From: Rhodococcus triatomae BKS 15-14
GTDB lineage: Bacteria; Actinomycetota; Actinomycetes; Mycobacteriales; Mycobacteriaceae
Direction: 5' to 3'
DNA length: 64,000 nt
Assembly (NCBI GenBank): GCA_000341795.1
Contig: AODO01000040.1
Coordinates: forward strand, 1-64,000
Positions within the stretch are counted from its first letter, which is position 1; each line of letters starts with the position of its first letter. Shown one piece after another: positions 30,365-35,081 of the stretch. The position numbers and the translations under genes are program-made. The notes beneath the pieces were generated by a model that ran no database searches, was not told the DNA's origin, and saw nothing but the letters and a program-made list of their open reading frames with translations.

Positions 30365-31972
30365 TCATTCCGCGGCGGCGACTGCGGTCGTGGTCTTCAC
30401 GGATCGGCCGGGCAGGATCACCGCCACCACCACTGCGCCGATCGCGAGTGCGAGACCTCCGACGAGACTGGCGTGCCCGATGGCGTCGGCGAACGCGCTC
30501 CCGGCGGCTTCGCGCAACGGTTCGGCATACGACGAGGCGAACGGGTTGTTCGCCATCTCCTGCGCGACCAACGTTGCGCCGCCGACGGATTCACGCGACA
30601 CCTCCATCGCGTAGTCGGCCTGCGCGGCCATGTCGCCGGTCAGTGCGGGCAGCGGAGCGTCGTCGATGAAACCGGCGATCGAGCCCTGGTAGGTCGACGC
30701 GAGGACCGAGCCGAGGATCGCGATGCCGAGTGAACCACCGAGTTCGATGGCGGTGTCGTTCAGTCCGCCGGCGGCACCCAGGTCGTTCTCGGGGAAGCGG
30801 TCCATGATCGCGTCGGTGGCGGGGGGCTCGGCGAGGCCGATGCCGAAGCCGAGGAGGACCAGTGGCACCGCGAATGCGAGGTAACCCGCGCCGGCGTCGA
30901 CCCGCGCCATCAGCAGGACGCCCGCCGCGGCGAACAGCATGCCCGCCACCACCGTGCCGCGCACGCCCAGTCGCGGCGAGATCCGGCCGCTGCTCAGGGC
31001 GCCGAGCGAGACCGCCGCCGCGAGGGGGAGTAGCCGAACGCCCGTTTCGAGTGGGCCGTAGCCGAGGACGAACTGGAACTGCTGGGCGACGAAGTAGATC
31101 GCGGCGAAGGCGGCGAGGAACAGCAGGAGCACCGCGAGGGTCGCGCCACCGATCGTCCGGTCGGTCAGCCGGCGCACGTCGAGAAGCGGCGCGGGGTGGC
31201 GCAGTTCCCACACCACGAACACCGCCGAAGCGAGGGCTGCGACGACCATCGCCGCGACCGGGCCTGCGCTCCACCCGAAGTGGAAGCCGTTGATGATCGA
31301 GTAGACCAGCGCGCCGATCGCGAGCACCGACAGCGCTCCACCGATCCAGTCGATGCGGCGGGCCTCGGCCGCCTTCGACGGCGGCACCAGGACCAGTGCG
31401 CCCACGGCCGCGACGGCTGCGATCGGCACGTTGATCAGGAATGTGGCGCTCCACGAATGGGATTCGAGTATCCACCCGGCCAGCAACGGCCCGAACGCGA
31501 TGGCGAGGCCTGCGGTCGCCGCCCAGGCCGCGATCGCGCGGGAGCGTTCGGCGCGGGGGAACGTCGCCACGAGCAGCGACAGCGTCGCGGGCATGATGAC
31601 GGCCGCGCCGACGCCCATGACGATCCGGGCGGTGACGACCGCGGCGGTCGTGTCGGCGAGGCTGCCGAACACCGCACCGGCTCCGAACACGAGCAGACCG
31701 GCGAGCAGCGCGCGGCGGCGGCCGTAACGGTCGCCGACGACACCGAAGAGCAACATCAGTGCGGCGTAGGGGACGGTGTAGCCGTCGATGACCCACTGCA
31801 GCTGCGAACTGGTCAGCGCGAGATCGCGGGTCATGTCCGGTGCCGCGACGATCAGAGCGGTGTTGGCCATGACGACGATCAGCAGGGCCAGGCACAGCAC
31901 CCCGAGGGCGGCCCACCGCCAGCGGTAGGGCGTCCGTTCGTCTGTTACCGGTCGGGTGGCGAGAAGGGTCAT
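30365..31972 (-). CDS. MFS drug exporter, DHA2 (14-TM) family
   Basis: 535 residues from the ATG at 31972. About 14 hydrophobic segments; the motif after TM2 'GDRYGRRRALLAG' and 'LVATFPRAERSRAIAAW' are those of the DHA2/EmrB-QacA exporters. It would expel a drug or metabolite with proton antiport. It is divergent from a TetR gene with two matching dyads between them, the usual layout of an inducible efflux pump. Confidence 0.9.
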   Translation of the reverse strand: MTLLATRPVTDERTPYRWRWAALGVLCLALLIVVMANTALIVAAPDMTRDLALTSSQLQWVIDGYTVPYAALMLLFGVVGDRYGRRRALLAGLLVFGAGAVFGSLADTTAAVVTARIVMGVGAAVIMPATLSLLVATFPRAERSRAIAAWAATAGLAIAFGPLLAGWILESHSWSATFLINVPIAAVAAVGALVLVPPSKAAEARRIDWIGGALSVLAIGALVYSIINGFHFGWSAGPVAAMVVAALASAVFVVWELRHPAPLLDVRRLTDRTIGGATLAVLLLFLAAFAAIYFVAQQFQFVLGYGPLETGVRLLPLAAAVSLGALSSGRISPRLGVRGTVVAGMLFAAAGVLLMARVDAGAGYLAFAVPLVLLGFGIGLAEPPATDAIMDRFPENDLGAAGGLNDTAIELGGSLGIAILGSVLASTYQGSIAGFIDDAPLPALTGDMAAQADYAMEVSRESVGGATLVAQEMANNPFASSYAEPLREAAGSAFADAIGHASLVGGLALAIGAVVVAVILPGRSVKTTTAVAAAE

Positions 31973-32006
31973 GCCGGGCTCCGTTCCTCGAGTTCGCGAC
32001 GCTGAC

Positions 32007-32022
32007 TGCACACTGATGTGCA
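32007..32022. promoter_or_regulatory. TetR operator 1 (TGCACA-N4-TGTGCA)
   Basis: TGCACA and TGTGCA form perfect 6-bp arms with a 4-bp spacer; same core and spacer as the neighbouring dyad. It lies 35 bp before the MFS start. Confidence 0.65.
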
Positions 32023-32029
32023 AGTTACG

Positions 32030-32055
32030 GTCATTGCACAGAGATGTGCAATGAC
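32030..32055. promoter_or_regulatory. TetR operator 2 (11-bp arms)
   Basis: GTCATTGCACA and TGTGCAATGAC are perfect 11-bp inverted arms around GAGA. The centres of operators 1 and 2 are 28 bp apart. Placed to cover both divergent promoters. Confidence 0.75.
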
Positions 32056-32133
32056 GTTGTGGTCGGAATCACCGGCGCGCGGGACGCCGTATCTCCGTCG
32101 TGGAACACTGCGGAGGTGGAAGGCGGTGCAGTC

Positions 32134-32781
32134 GTGGGCAACGAGTCGGTCAGGCCGCGGCGCAGCCAGGCCCGCGCGAACCGGTCCCGCATCATCGAGG
32201 CCGCGATCAGCGAATTCGCCCGTAACCCCGACGCCAGCATGGACGACGTCGCGCGCGCCGCCGGCGTCGTGCGACGGACCGTCTACGGGCACTTCCCGAA
32301 CCGGGACGCGCTCGTCGAGGGCCTCGTCGACGAGGCGTCGTCCGCGCTGCTCGCCGTCCTCGACGAGCTCCCGACGCTGCCGGATCGCCCCGACCTGACA
32401 ACGGCGGTGCTGGCTCTTCTGAGCTGGCCCATCGGTGACAGATTCCGGGTGCTGCTCACCTTCGCCCGCGCCGAACTCGGGGAGGAACGCATCCGTGACC
32501 TCCTCGTGCCCGCCCGAGCGCCGAGCATCGCACTCGTCGAACGTGGTCAGGCCGATGGGGTGTTCTCCGCGTACCTGCCGGCGTCGGTGCTCGTCGCGAT
32601 GACCGAGGCCGTCACCCTCGCGCTGTTCGAGGAGGCGAACCACGGCACGATCACCGACGACGGGGACTCGTTCGCGCTCGCATCGCTCGTATTGCTCGGT
32701 GTCGAGCCGAGCCGGGCCGCCGACGTCGTCGCCGAGGCGTGGGACCTGCTGCGGACGAGGCCGGCCACTCCGGGGGCCTGA
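32134..32781 (+). CDS. TetR-family repressor of the MFS exporter
   Basis: 215 residues from the GTG at 32134 (GTG 32116 possible; an in-frame ATG at 32044 would lie inside operator 2 and is rejected). HTH 'MDDVARAAGVVRRTVYGHF' in the N-terminal third, after a basic 'RRSQARANRSRI'. The C-terminal part is a ligand pocket of all-helical type. Probable autorepressor and repressor of the divergent exporter gene. Confidence 0.85.
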   Translation: MGNESVRPRRSQARANRSRIIEAAISEFARNPDASMDDVARAAGVVRRTVYGHFPNRDALVEGLVDEASSALLAVLDELPTLPDRPDLTTAVLALLSWPIGDRFRVLLTFARAELGEERIRDLLVPARAPSIALVERGQADGVFSAYLPASVLVAMTEAVTLALFEEANHGTITDDGDSFALASLVLLGVEPSRAADVVAEAWDLLRTRPATPGA

Positions 32782-32891: not shown

Positions 32892-35081
32892 GTGAGTGCA
32901 GACAGCATGGGTGGGACGTCGTCCCCCGTCTCCCGGTCCGGTTCCTCGGCGCGGACGGTCGACGCGCAGCAGCGTCCCGCGCAGCGCTCGGTGCGATCGA
33001 GTATGGAGATCTCGCCCGAAGCGATGTTGCCTCTGCTCGGTTCGACGGACGAGAACCTCAAGGCCCTCGAACGCGCGCTCGCCGCCGACATCCACGCCCG
33101 CGGCAACACCCTCACCTTCACCGGTGCCGCAGCCGACGTCGCTCTCGCCGAACGGGTCGTCAGCGAACTCGTCGCCCTGGTCGGCAAGGGTCAGGCCCTC
33201 ACCCCGGATGCGGTGCGCCGCAGCATCTCGATGATGACCGACGGCGCGGGCGAGTCGCCTGCCGAGGTGCTGAGCCTCGACATCCTGTCCCGGCGGGGCA
33301 GGACGATCCGCCCGAAGACGGTCAACCAGAAGCGGTACGTCGACGCGATCGACGCCAACACCATCGTGTTCGGCATCGGTCCCGCGGGTACCGGCAAGAC
33401 GTACCTGGCGATGGCGAAGGCCGTGCAGGCGTTGCAGAGCAAGAACGTCAGCCGGATCATCCTCACGCGCCCGGCGGTCGAGGCCGGCGAACGGCTCGGC
33501 TTCCTGCCCGGAACGCTGCACGAGAAGATCGACCCGTACCTGCGGCCGCTGCACGACGCGCTGCACGACATGATGGACCCCGAGGCGATCCCGAAGCTGA
33601 TGCAGGCGGGCGTGATCGAGGTCGCCCCGCTGGCGTACATGCGCGGCCGGGCGCAGCCTTTGTCCACCAACGTTCTGACCCCTGAGGGTTTTCGCAGGAT
33701 CGGCGACGTGAAGGTCGGTGATTCGGTGATCGGGTCAGACGGACGACCGACCGAGGTCCTCGGTGTCTACCCCCAGGGATTCAAGGACATCGTGCGGGTG
33801 ACCGCTCAGGACGGGGCGTCCACGCTCTGCTCGACCGATCACCTGTGGTCGGTGTACACGCGTGACGACCGCAGACGTGGCAAGGGTCCTCGTGTGCTCG
33901 AAGCCAAGGAGATGATCGGGAACCTCCGTGCCGCGCACTACCACCGCTACGAGCTCCCGATGCTCTCGGCGCCGGTGACGTTCGACGCGACGCCGGTGCC
34001 GATGGATCCTTACGCACTCGGGTTGATGCTGGGTGACGGATGTATGGCCGGTGTGACGACGCCGAGCTACACCACCGCAGATCCGGAGTTGATCGAGGCG
34101 CTCGTCGCGGCCATTCCCGGTATCGTGGCGCGTCGCAAGTCGGACGTGGACTACGTTCTGAACCGCATCACGACGCCGGGCGAGGTCATCACCATCGAGA
34201 ATCCCGTCACCTACGCCATGCGGGTGCTGGGCCTGTGGGGCACGAAGTCACCGACCAAGTTCGTTCCGGCGGAGTACTTGCACAATTCGGCCAGTGTGCG
34301 GCTCGCGGTGTTGCAGGGACTTCTCGACTCCGACGGTGGACCGGTTGGCCAGACCGGGCGTTCCTGTCGCGTCCAATACACGACCGTGTCCGATCGCTTG
34401 CGTGACGACGTCCTGTACCTCGTGCAGTCGTTGGGCGGTGTCGCCTACAGCCGCACCCGCGCCGCCGAGGGTCGGAAGCCCGGACGCGCCCGCGGACGAG
34501 ACGTGGAGTACAGGCACGACGCACACGTCATCGATATTCGTCTGCCGGAAGGGTGCGCGCCGTTCCGGCTCCGACGGAAGGTCGAGAAGTACTCGGTGAC
34601 AAAGCCCAAGTCACCTCGGCGATACATCGAGAGCATCGAATCTGTGGGCACCGAGGAGGCTGTCTGCATCAGCGTCGCGGCAGCAGACTCCCTGTACGTC
34701 ACCGAGGATTTTCTGCTGACCCACAACACCCTGAACGACGCGTTCATCATCCTGGACGAGGCGCAGAACACGACCGCCGAGCAGATGAAGATGTTCCTCA
34801 CCCGGCTCGGATTCGGTTCGAAGATCGTCGTCACCGGTGACGTCACGCAGATCGACCTGCCCGGCGGGCAGCGTTCCGGGCTGCGTGCGGCGAGCGAGAT
34901 CCTCACGGACATCGACGACATCCACTTCGCGGAACTGACGAGCGCCGACGTCGTCCGGCACCGGCTCGTCTCCGACATCGTCGACGCCTACGACCGGTTC
35001 GAGTCCGAGCGGGGCGACGACGTGTCCCTCGGCAACCGGGCGCAGCGCCGCGCGGCGGCCGGTCGCCCCGGGCGCCGGTGA
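32892..35081 (+). CDS. phoH: PhoH-like ATPase precursor containing an intein
   Basis: 729-residue precursor from the GTG at 32892. Extein residues 1-253 and the last 117 residues join to a 370-residue PhoH protein. N-terminal KH-like segment (40-95), Walker A 'GPAGTGKT' at 163-170, and Walker B 'FIILDEAQN' just after the splice point. PhoH2-type proteins with ybeY downstream are linked to RNA processing and ribosome maturation; the mycobacterial PhoH1 is the counterpart. The intein lies between 'AYMRGR' and 'TLNDAF', separating Walker A from Walker B, so the precursor should be inactive until spliced. Confidence 0.93.
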   Translation: MSADSMGGTSSPVSRSGSSARTVDAQQRPAQRSVRSSMEISPEAMLPLLGSTDENLKALERALAADIHARGNTLTFTGAAADVALAERVVSELVALVGKGQALTPDAVRRSISMMTDGAGESPAEVLSLDILSRRGRTIRPKTVNQKRYVDAIDANTIVFGIGPAGTGKTYLAMAKAVQALQSKNVSRIILTRPAVEAGERLGFLPGTLHEKIDPYLRPLHDALHDMMDPEAIPKLMQAGVIEVAPLAYMRGRAQPLSTNVLTPEGFRRIGDVKVGDSVIGSDGRPTEVLGVYPQGFKDIVRVTAQDGASTLCSTDHLWSVYTRDDRRRGKGPRVLEAKEMIGNLRAAHYHRYELPMLSAPVTFDATPVPMDPYALGLMLGDGCMAGVTTPSYTTADPELIEALVAAIPGIVARRKSDVDYVLNRITTPGEVITIENPVTYAMRVLGLWGTKSPTKFVPAEYLHNSASVRLAVLQGLLDSDGGPVGQTGRSCRVQYTTVSDRLRDDVLYLVQSLGGVAYSRTRAAEGRKPGRARGRDVEYRHDAHVIDIRLPEGCAPFRLRRKVEKYSVTKPKSPRRYIESIESVGTEEAVCISVAAADSLYVTEDFLLTHNTLNDAFIILDEAQNTTAEQMKMFLTRLGFGSKIVVTGDVTQIDLPGGQRSGLRAASEILTDIDDIHFAELTSADVVRHRLVSDIVDAYDRFESERGDDVSLGNRAQRRAAAGRPGRR
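33651..34727 (+). other. Class 3-type intein with LAGLIDADG homing endonuclease
   Basis: 359 residues in frame within phoH. It begins with Ala ('AQPLSTNVL'), not Cys or Ser, and ends 'LLTHN' before a Thr +1. The class 3 'WCT' set is present: Trp66 in block B ('STDHLW'), Cys339 in block F ('AVCISVAAADSLYV'), Thr357 before His-Asn. Class 3 inteins use the block F cysteine as first nucleophile instead of residue 1. A homing endonuclease is inserted: 'YALGLMLGDG' (121-130) and 'LQGLLDSDGG' (221-230) are the two LAGLIDADG-type helices with acidic residues. Whether nuclease and splicing are active cannot be judged from sequence, but all key residues are intact. Confidence 0.9.

Follow-up and report, generated by a model that had tools for sequence, protein, structure and literature searches.

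The phoH gene of Rhodococcus triatomae BKS 15-14 raises two questions: whether the long insertion that separates the Walker A and Walker B motifs of its product is a working intein, and how this insertion came to reside in a gene that its closest relatives keep in one piece. The gene lies on contig AODO01000040.1 (assembly GCA_000341795.1), of which positions 1 to 64,000 of the forward strand were analysed; this whole stretch of 64,000 nucleotides is called the window below. From its sequence and that of its relatives, the insertion is very probably a class 3 intein whose LAGLIDADG homing endonuclease looks intact, and it was probably gained horizontally. It is an ordinary member of a known intein family in an unusual position, shortly before Walker B.

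The phoH open reading frame (ORF) occupies positions 32892-35081 of the forward strand (729 aa, GTG start at 32892, stop codon ending at 35081). The intein takes up residues 254-612 of this ORF (nt 33651-34727, 359 aa), which leaves a PhoH of 370 aa after splicing; a preliminary description of the window had given exactly these intein coordinates and product lengths. The parts of the gene are as follows.

32892..33650, + strand: phoH N-extein, 253 aa counted from the GTG, a provisional start; ends ...AYMRGR; first PF02562 stretch
33378..33401, + strand: Walker A of PhoH, GPAGTGKT; from the sequence and aligned with PDB 3b85 (GPAGSGKT there)
33651..34727, + strand: predicted class 3 intein, AQPLST...FLLTHN, 359 aa; from sequence, family conservation and predicted fold
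33651..33950, + strand: Hint splicing domain, N-terminal part, residues 1-100, with Ala1; approximate boundary
33831..33848, + strand: block B, S61-T-D-H64-L-W66; H64 and W66 in 43/43 inteins
34008..34538, + strand: LAGLIDADG homing endonuclease domain, about residues 120-296; from PF14528 and model matches, approximate boundaries
34035..34037, + strand: Asp129, acid of the first LAGLIDADG motif, LGLMLGDG; from sequence and family alignments
34332..34334, + strand: Asp228, acid of the second LAGLIDADG motif, LLDSDG; from sequence and family alignments
34623..34727, + strand: Hint domain, C-terminal part, residues 325-359; from family alignment and predicted fold
34665..34667, + strand: Cys339, class 3 block F nucleophile; in 43/43 inteins
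34719..34727, + strand: block G, Thr357-His358-Asn359; in 43/43 inteins
34728..35081, + strand: phoH C-extein, 117 aa and stop, first residue Thr+1 (TLNDAFIILDEAQN); second PF02562 stretch
34743..34760, + strand: Walker B of PhoH, FIILDE; from the sequence

The exteins were identified as PhoH by a profile search (PF02562, 302.5 bits, in two stretches with LAGLIDADG_3 in between). Once joined, they carry PF02562 across both parts together with Walker A and Walker B, as expected of a PhoH ATPase, and align with PDB 3b85 with no gap at RGRT. Since the intein splits Walker A from Walker B, ATPase activity would need splicing, and the protein is plausibly inactive before it. The genome also contains a second PhoH-domain gene (locus L002, G000:C18:5514-6125), a strong one-piece match over profile positions 3-203.

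All the residues named in the preliminary description, Ala1, Trp66, Cys339, Thr357, the His358-Asn359 end and Thr+1, are in place. Block B has Trp66 two residues past its His64, block F contains Cys339, and the intein closes with Thr357-His358-Asn359 ahead of Thr+1. These are the features of a class 3 intein: a Hint fold, no nucleophile at position 1 (Ala1), the block B His, the terminal His-Asn, a nucleophilic Thr+1 and the Trp-Cys-Thr (WCT) triplet at W66, C339 and T357, which correspond to B12, F4 and G5 in the block numbering of PMC5050341. The assignment of Trp66 to block B and Cys339 to block F held in a phmmer alignment to gp41-1 (PDB 6riz, whose title names C1A, F65W and D107C), where, with a chain offset of 3 counted by hand, the two residues coincide with the engineered Trp65 and Cys107.

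In an alignment of 31 distinct family sequences, from which 13 identical intein copies had been removed beforehand, A1, S61, H64, W66, C339, T357, H358 and N359 are identical throughout, which argues that the residue set is not there by chance. Addition of 12 loci from the wider phylum gave 43 phoH-site inteins, all with H64, W66, C339, T357, H358 and N359; these six are also invariant across the 18 rows of alignment A3, which includes 12 phage rows and reaches down to 33% identity. The 43 inteins vary at position 1 (Ala 42, Ser 1), position 60 (Cys 29, Ala 13, Ser 1) and position 61 (Ser 31, Cys 9, Thr 3). Might the insert nevertheless be dead for splicing, interrupting PhoH while the second PhoH-domain gene covers its function? 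The presence of that gene would permit it, but the frame is open with every splicing residue intact, the share of majority residues is 0.82-0.87 in the Hint blocks versus 0.70 in the endonuclease (gaps lowering the latter value), and dN/dS (ratio of nonsynonymous to synonymous substitution rates) is about 0.1 between the window and locus L011, so that we find this explanation hardly credible. Sequence, motifs, family conservation and predicted fold agree with the original call that PhoH carries a class 3 intein equipped with a homing endonuclease, and we predict with near certainty that it is functional.

In the class 3 pathway the block F Cys attacks the N-junction, the +1 residue attacks the resulting thioester, Asn cyclises and a peptide bond joins the exteins (PMC6195587, PMC5050341). 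Cys339 would accordingly open the Arg-Ala1 bond, the Thr+1 hydroxyl would take over the N-extein, and cyclisation of Asn359 would release the 359-aa intein and form the 370-aa PhoH. The endonuclease, for its part, would cut intein-free phoH at the RGR|T site (the bar marking the insertion point), and repair of the cut gene from an intein-bearing copy would spread the intein.

This endonuclease is apparently intact, judging from its motifs. PF14528 (LAGLIDADG_3) matches residues 216-276 with 36 bits against a cut-off of 22.5, and both LAGLIDADG motifs retain their acids, LGLMLGDG with Asp129 and LLDSDG with Asp228, which we take to be the catalytic ones. The predicted model matches PI-SceI and, over residues 112-318, also I-Tsp061I. 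PI-SceI, the yeast VMA intein, is eukaryotic, shares about 20% identity with the window's intein and is a class 1 intein with Cys1. A full endonuclease is usual among the intein's kin: it was scored intact (length of 340 aa or more, with Asp or Glu at 129 and 228) in 32/43 phoH-site inteins, and in 715 of 748 matching phage records 80% or more of the query is covered at a single place, both counts being biased by a query that itself contains the endonuclease.

How widely is the site occupied? Within the family, 34 of 401 genomes match the intein at E-values up to 1e-20, and 30 of the 34, including the window's, were read and have the RGR|T site in all cases, with full-length relatives at 69-89% identity. 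Genome G193 (without a locus) is likely a 31st carrier, because its intein match comes in two pieces and its phoH match is of split size. The inteins of G069, G167 and G186 (31-40% identity) are taken to sit elsewhere, because the best phoH E-values of these genomes (1.5e-155, 4.6e-158 and 2.0e-158) are the size of unsplit matches. We thus take 31/401 family genomes to have the intein in phoH, a gene present in 399/401 among the matches listed. A phylum-wide draw gave matches in 21/396 genomes, 3 of them also in the family draw, and yielded the 12 further loci with RGR|T phoH inteins; this count leaves out L110 and L103, the latter, outside the automatic set, likewise ending HN|TLNDSFIVLDEAQN. 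The L113 and L114 inteins are in proteins other than PhoH, and those of L111, L115, L116 and L117, also from this phylum, sit at a Walker A, GEVGSGK|T, presumably that of RecG. A scan of a genome-contig collection returned 15 loci, 14 with the phoH site (L054 is without a phoH frame), in records of Rhodococcus, Gordonia, Skermania and Nocardia and in one Maritimibacter metagenome-assembled genome. We rejected the last (L041) as a transfer to Proteobacteria; contamination in the public record is likelier, since 7068 of its 7077 bases equal those of Gordonia tangerina L045.

Within the genus the picture is different. The preliminary description had proposed a survey for intein-free phoH alleles, and this found them: all five other genus genomes have phoH as one uninterrupted match, 90-96% identical to the window's, and in these five, as in the 25 further phoH loci that resemble the window's most closely, no base separates RGR from T. 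At E-values up to 1e-6 the intein search matched 3/6 genus genomes and, apart from the window's phoH, the matches are DnaB inteins at 31-32% identity. One of these is a second class 3-like intein in the same genome (locus L010, G000:C68:203465-203851, 285 aa) in the DnaB P-loop, GVGK|ALALD...THN|STIGMD. It has His65-x-Trp67, and its second endonuclease motif is degenerate (VLDTIAT); its counterparts in congeners are a matching 285-aa intein (G003) and a 417-aa one (G004).

The two parts of the gene tell conflicting histories. The extein tree (70 loci) places the window within the genus clade (97, starred) as the partner of the empty L055 (98, starred), whereas the intein tree (139 rows) joins it to L011 and L012 of two other genera (99, starred). 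Patchy distribution and conflict on starred branches make gain by homing the simplest reading, and we consider it probable, from these comparisons, that the window's lineage gained the intein horizontally at a fixed phoH homing site, RGR|T. Some observations weigh against this. Synonymous divergence (dS) between the window and L011 is 0.514 for the exteins and 0.680 for the intein, with L012 it is 0.558 and 0.741, and intein dS was not below extein dS for any intein-bearing locus compared with the window; a recent transfer is therefore not borne out by silent sites, and the comparison is ambiguous because codon bias differs between intein and extein. No co-conversion tract was visible beside the insertion in 15-codon windows. 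Of the inteins found, L012 is the nearest; its first endonuclease acid is gone (His at 129), so it is no active donor itself. The congeners may also have lost the intein repeatedly and exactly; the extein tree needs three changes in all, in a sample whose empty loci are the phoH genes most similar to the window.

The same data can be read as an old actinobacterial phoH intein that was lost many times, the window's copy being a relic. The dS values would fit, as would the single clade formed by 26 actinobacterial phoH inteins across several family codes. It would, however, require repeated exact losses in one small genus and widely in the family, where so few genomes carry the intein; the extein and intein trees disagree for the window; and for the pair L026 and L030 dS is lower in the intein (0.291) than in the extein (0.470), a sign of transfer in that case. 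We therefore regard an old, repeatedly lost intein as unlikely and favour horizontal gain.

The empty alleles of the congeners bear equally on function. The preliminary description had suggested splicing as a control point for RNA metabolism, for which we found no evidence, phoH being uninterrupted in the five other genomes of the genus. A regulatory intein, whose conditional splicing (under redox or stress) would control PhoH in a phoH-ybeY-era cluster, has some attractions: an insert that parts Walker A from Walker B should keep the ATPase from assembling, the genes downstream of phoH are ybeY, a CNNM/CorC gene and one for an era-like GTPase, and the class 3 intein of Mycobacterium smegmatis DnaB is a reported redox sensor (PMC6195587). 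Cys60 lies beside block B in 29/43 inteins, and its pairing with Cys339 is conceivable, but it is replaced by Ala in 13/43 and by Ser in 1/43. As these relatives do without the intein, a mobile element is the simpler reading, and we judge regulation very improbable. Directly upstream of phoH, at window positions 30365-32781, are an MFS (major facilitator superfamily) transporter gene on the - strand and a TetR-type regulator gene on the + strand.

The intein does not sit inside a Walker A (P-loop GK|T) but at RGR|T ahead of Walker B, and this sets the phoH family apart from most of its viral relatives. Relatives were found in 748 of 50,697 phage records, all below 60% identity among the matches listed. 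Thirteen of these records were read, and G-K directly precedes the intein in 11, the matches of L089 and L094 starting a few residues late. Among 106 viral-contig loci (26 plus the best 80 of at least 583, with contexts assigned by regular expression and near-copies kept), 84 are Walker A-like [GSA]K|, 9 other GK|, 6 GR|, 5 other and 2 unassigned. The six GR| loci are L119, L126, L127, L128, L133 and L154. L119 is a virus-borne phoH on a 100-kb contig of the viral collection (RGR|TLNNAFIILDE; PhoH ORF of 572 aa, intein of 333 aa), whereas L126, L127, L128 and L133 (two distinct sequences on the tree) are terminase-like by motif, with YDQGR|TKWQADTV followed by VW-DEEP. The terminase-like site, just ahead of Walker B, resembles that of phoH but stands apart on the intein tree, so a common origin of the two GR|T sites is unsupported, the deep branches being weak.

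In the same tree, which comes from a short search and has a midpoint root and weak deep branches, the clade of the 26 actinobacterial phoH inteins has an SH-aLRT (Shimodaira-Hasegawa-like approximate likelihood ratio test) value of 98, starred, and L119 is its sister (99, starred). We tentatively propose, at somewhat less than an even chance for the proposal as a whole, that the Actinomycetota phoH inteins all go back to a single event in which a virus-type Walker A (GK|T) class 3 intein jumped to the look-alike GR|T before Walker B, that L119 preserves the link, that homing has since spread the intein between genera, and that the corresponding jump in terminases was made by a virus lineage of its own. 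With its midpoint root and weak deep branches, this tree does not show which way the jump went. If true, class 3 insertion would follow a G-[K/R]|[T/S] catalytic-site context and not one protein family.

Among known systems, the closest by description are the mycobacterial PhoH inteins of M. fortuitum (OBK00716) and M. xenopi (EID13626), both class 3 (PMC6195587), and that of M. smegmatis, named in PMC7360933; the host protein is the same as here, and the site may be so too. The M. smegmatis DnaBi1 (PDB 6bs8) is a class 3 mini-intein without endonuclease, with Asp in DxxH and in the DnaB P-loop; the window's intein differs in its S61xxH64, its complete endonuclease and its position away from the P-loop. 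The class 3 inteins that phages have at Walker A GK|T/S (for example PhiPA3 SNF2-like, Colt helicase, MetMV terminase) share its architecture and invariant residues, with 33-44% identity over 12 phage rows, but they follow the GK of Walker A, while the phoH family follows GR ahead of Walker B. The preference for P-loops is already known, as Kelley and co-workers (PMC5050341) call Lys|Thr in the P-loop a classic intein site, and they place the TerL1-e class 3 inteins in Walker B. The passages of text covered in the intein and PhoH literature (for PMC6195587 without its alignment figure of two mycobacterial PhoH inteins) do not mention the GR|T site of phoH, and a search mainly of papers outside subscription found none joining intein, Rhodococcus and PhoH.

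The locus offers a clean natural system for homing, in which one genus holds the same gene filled once and in five empty alleles, neighbouring genera hold relatives, and the kin appear, from their sequences, to have endonucleases in various degrees of decay while splicing is retained. Both splicing and cutting are readily approachable in Escherichia coli. It is informative, too, about site choice in class 3 inteins: most of the virus relatives retrieved are at Walker A, while the phoH family holds one non-P-loop GR|T site across the phylum.
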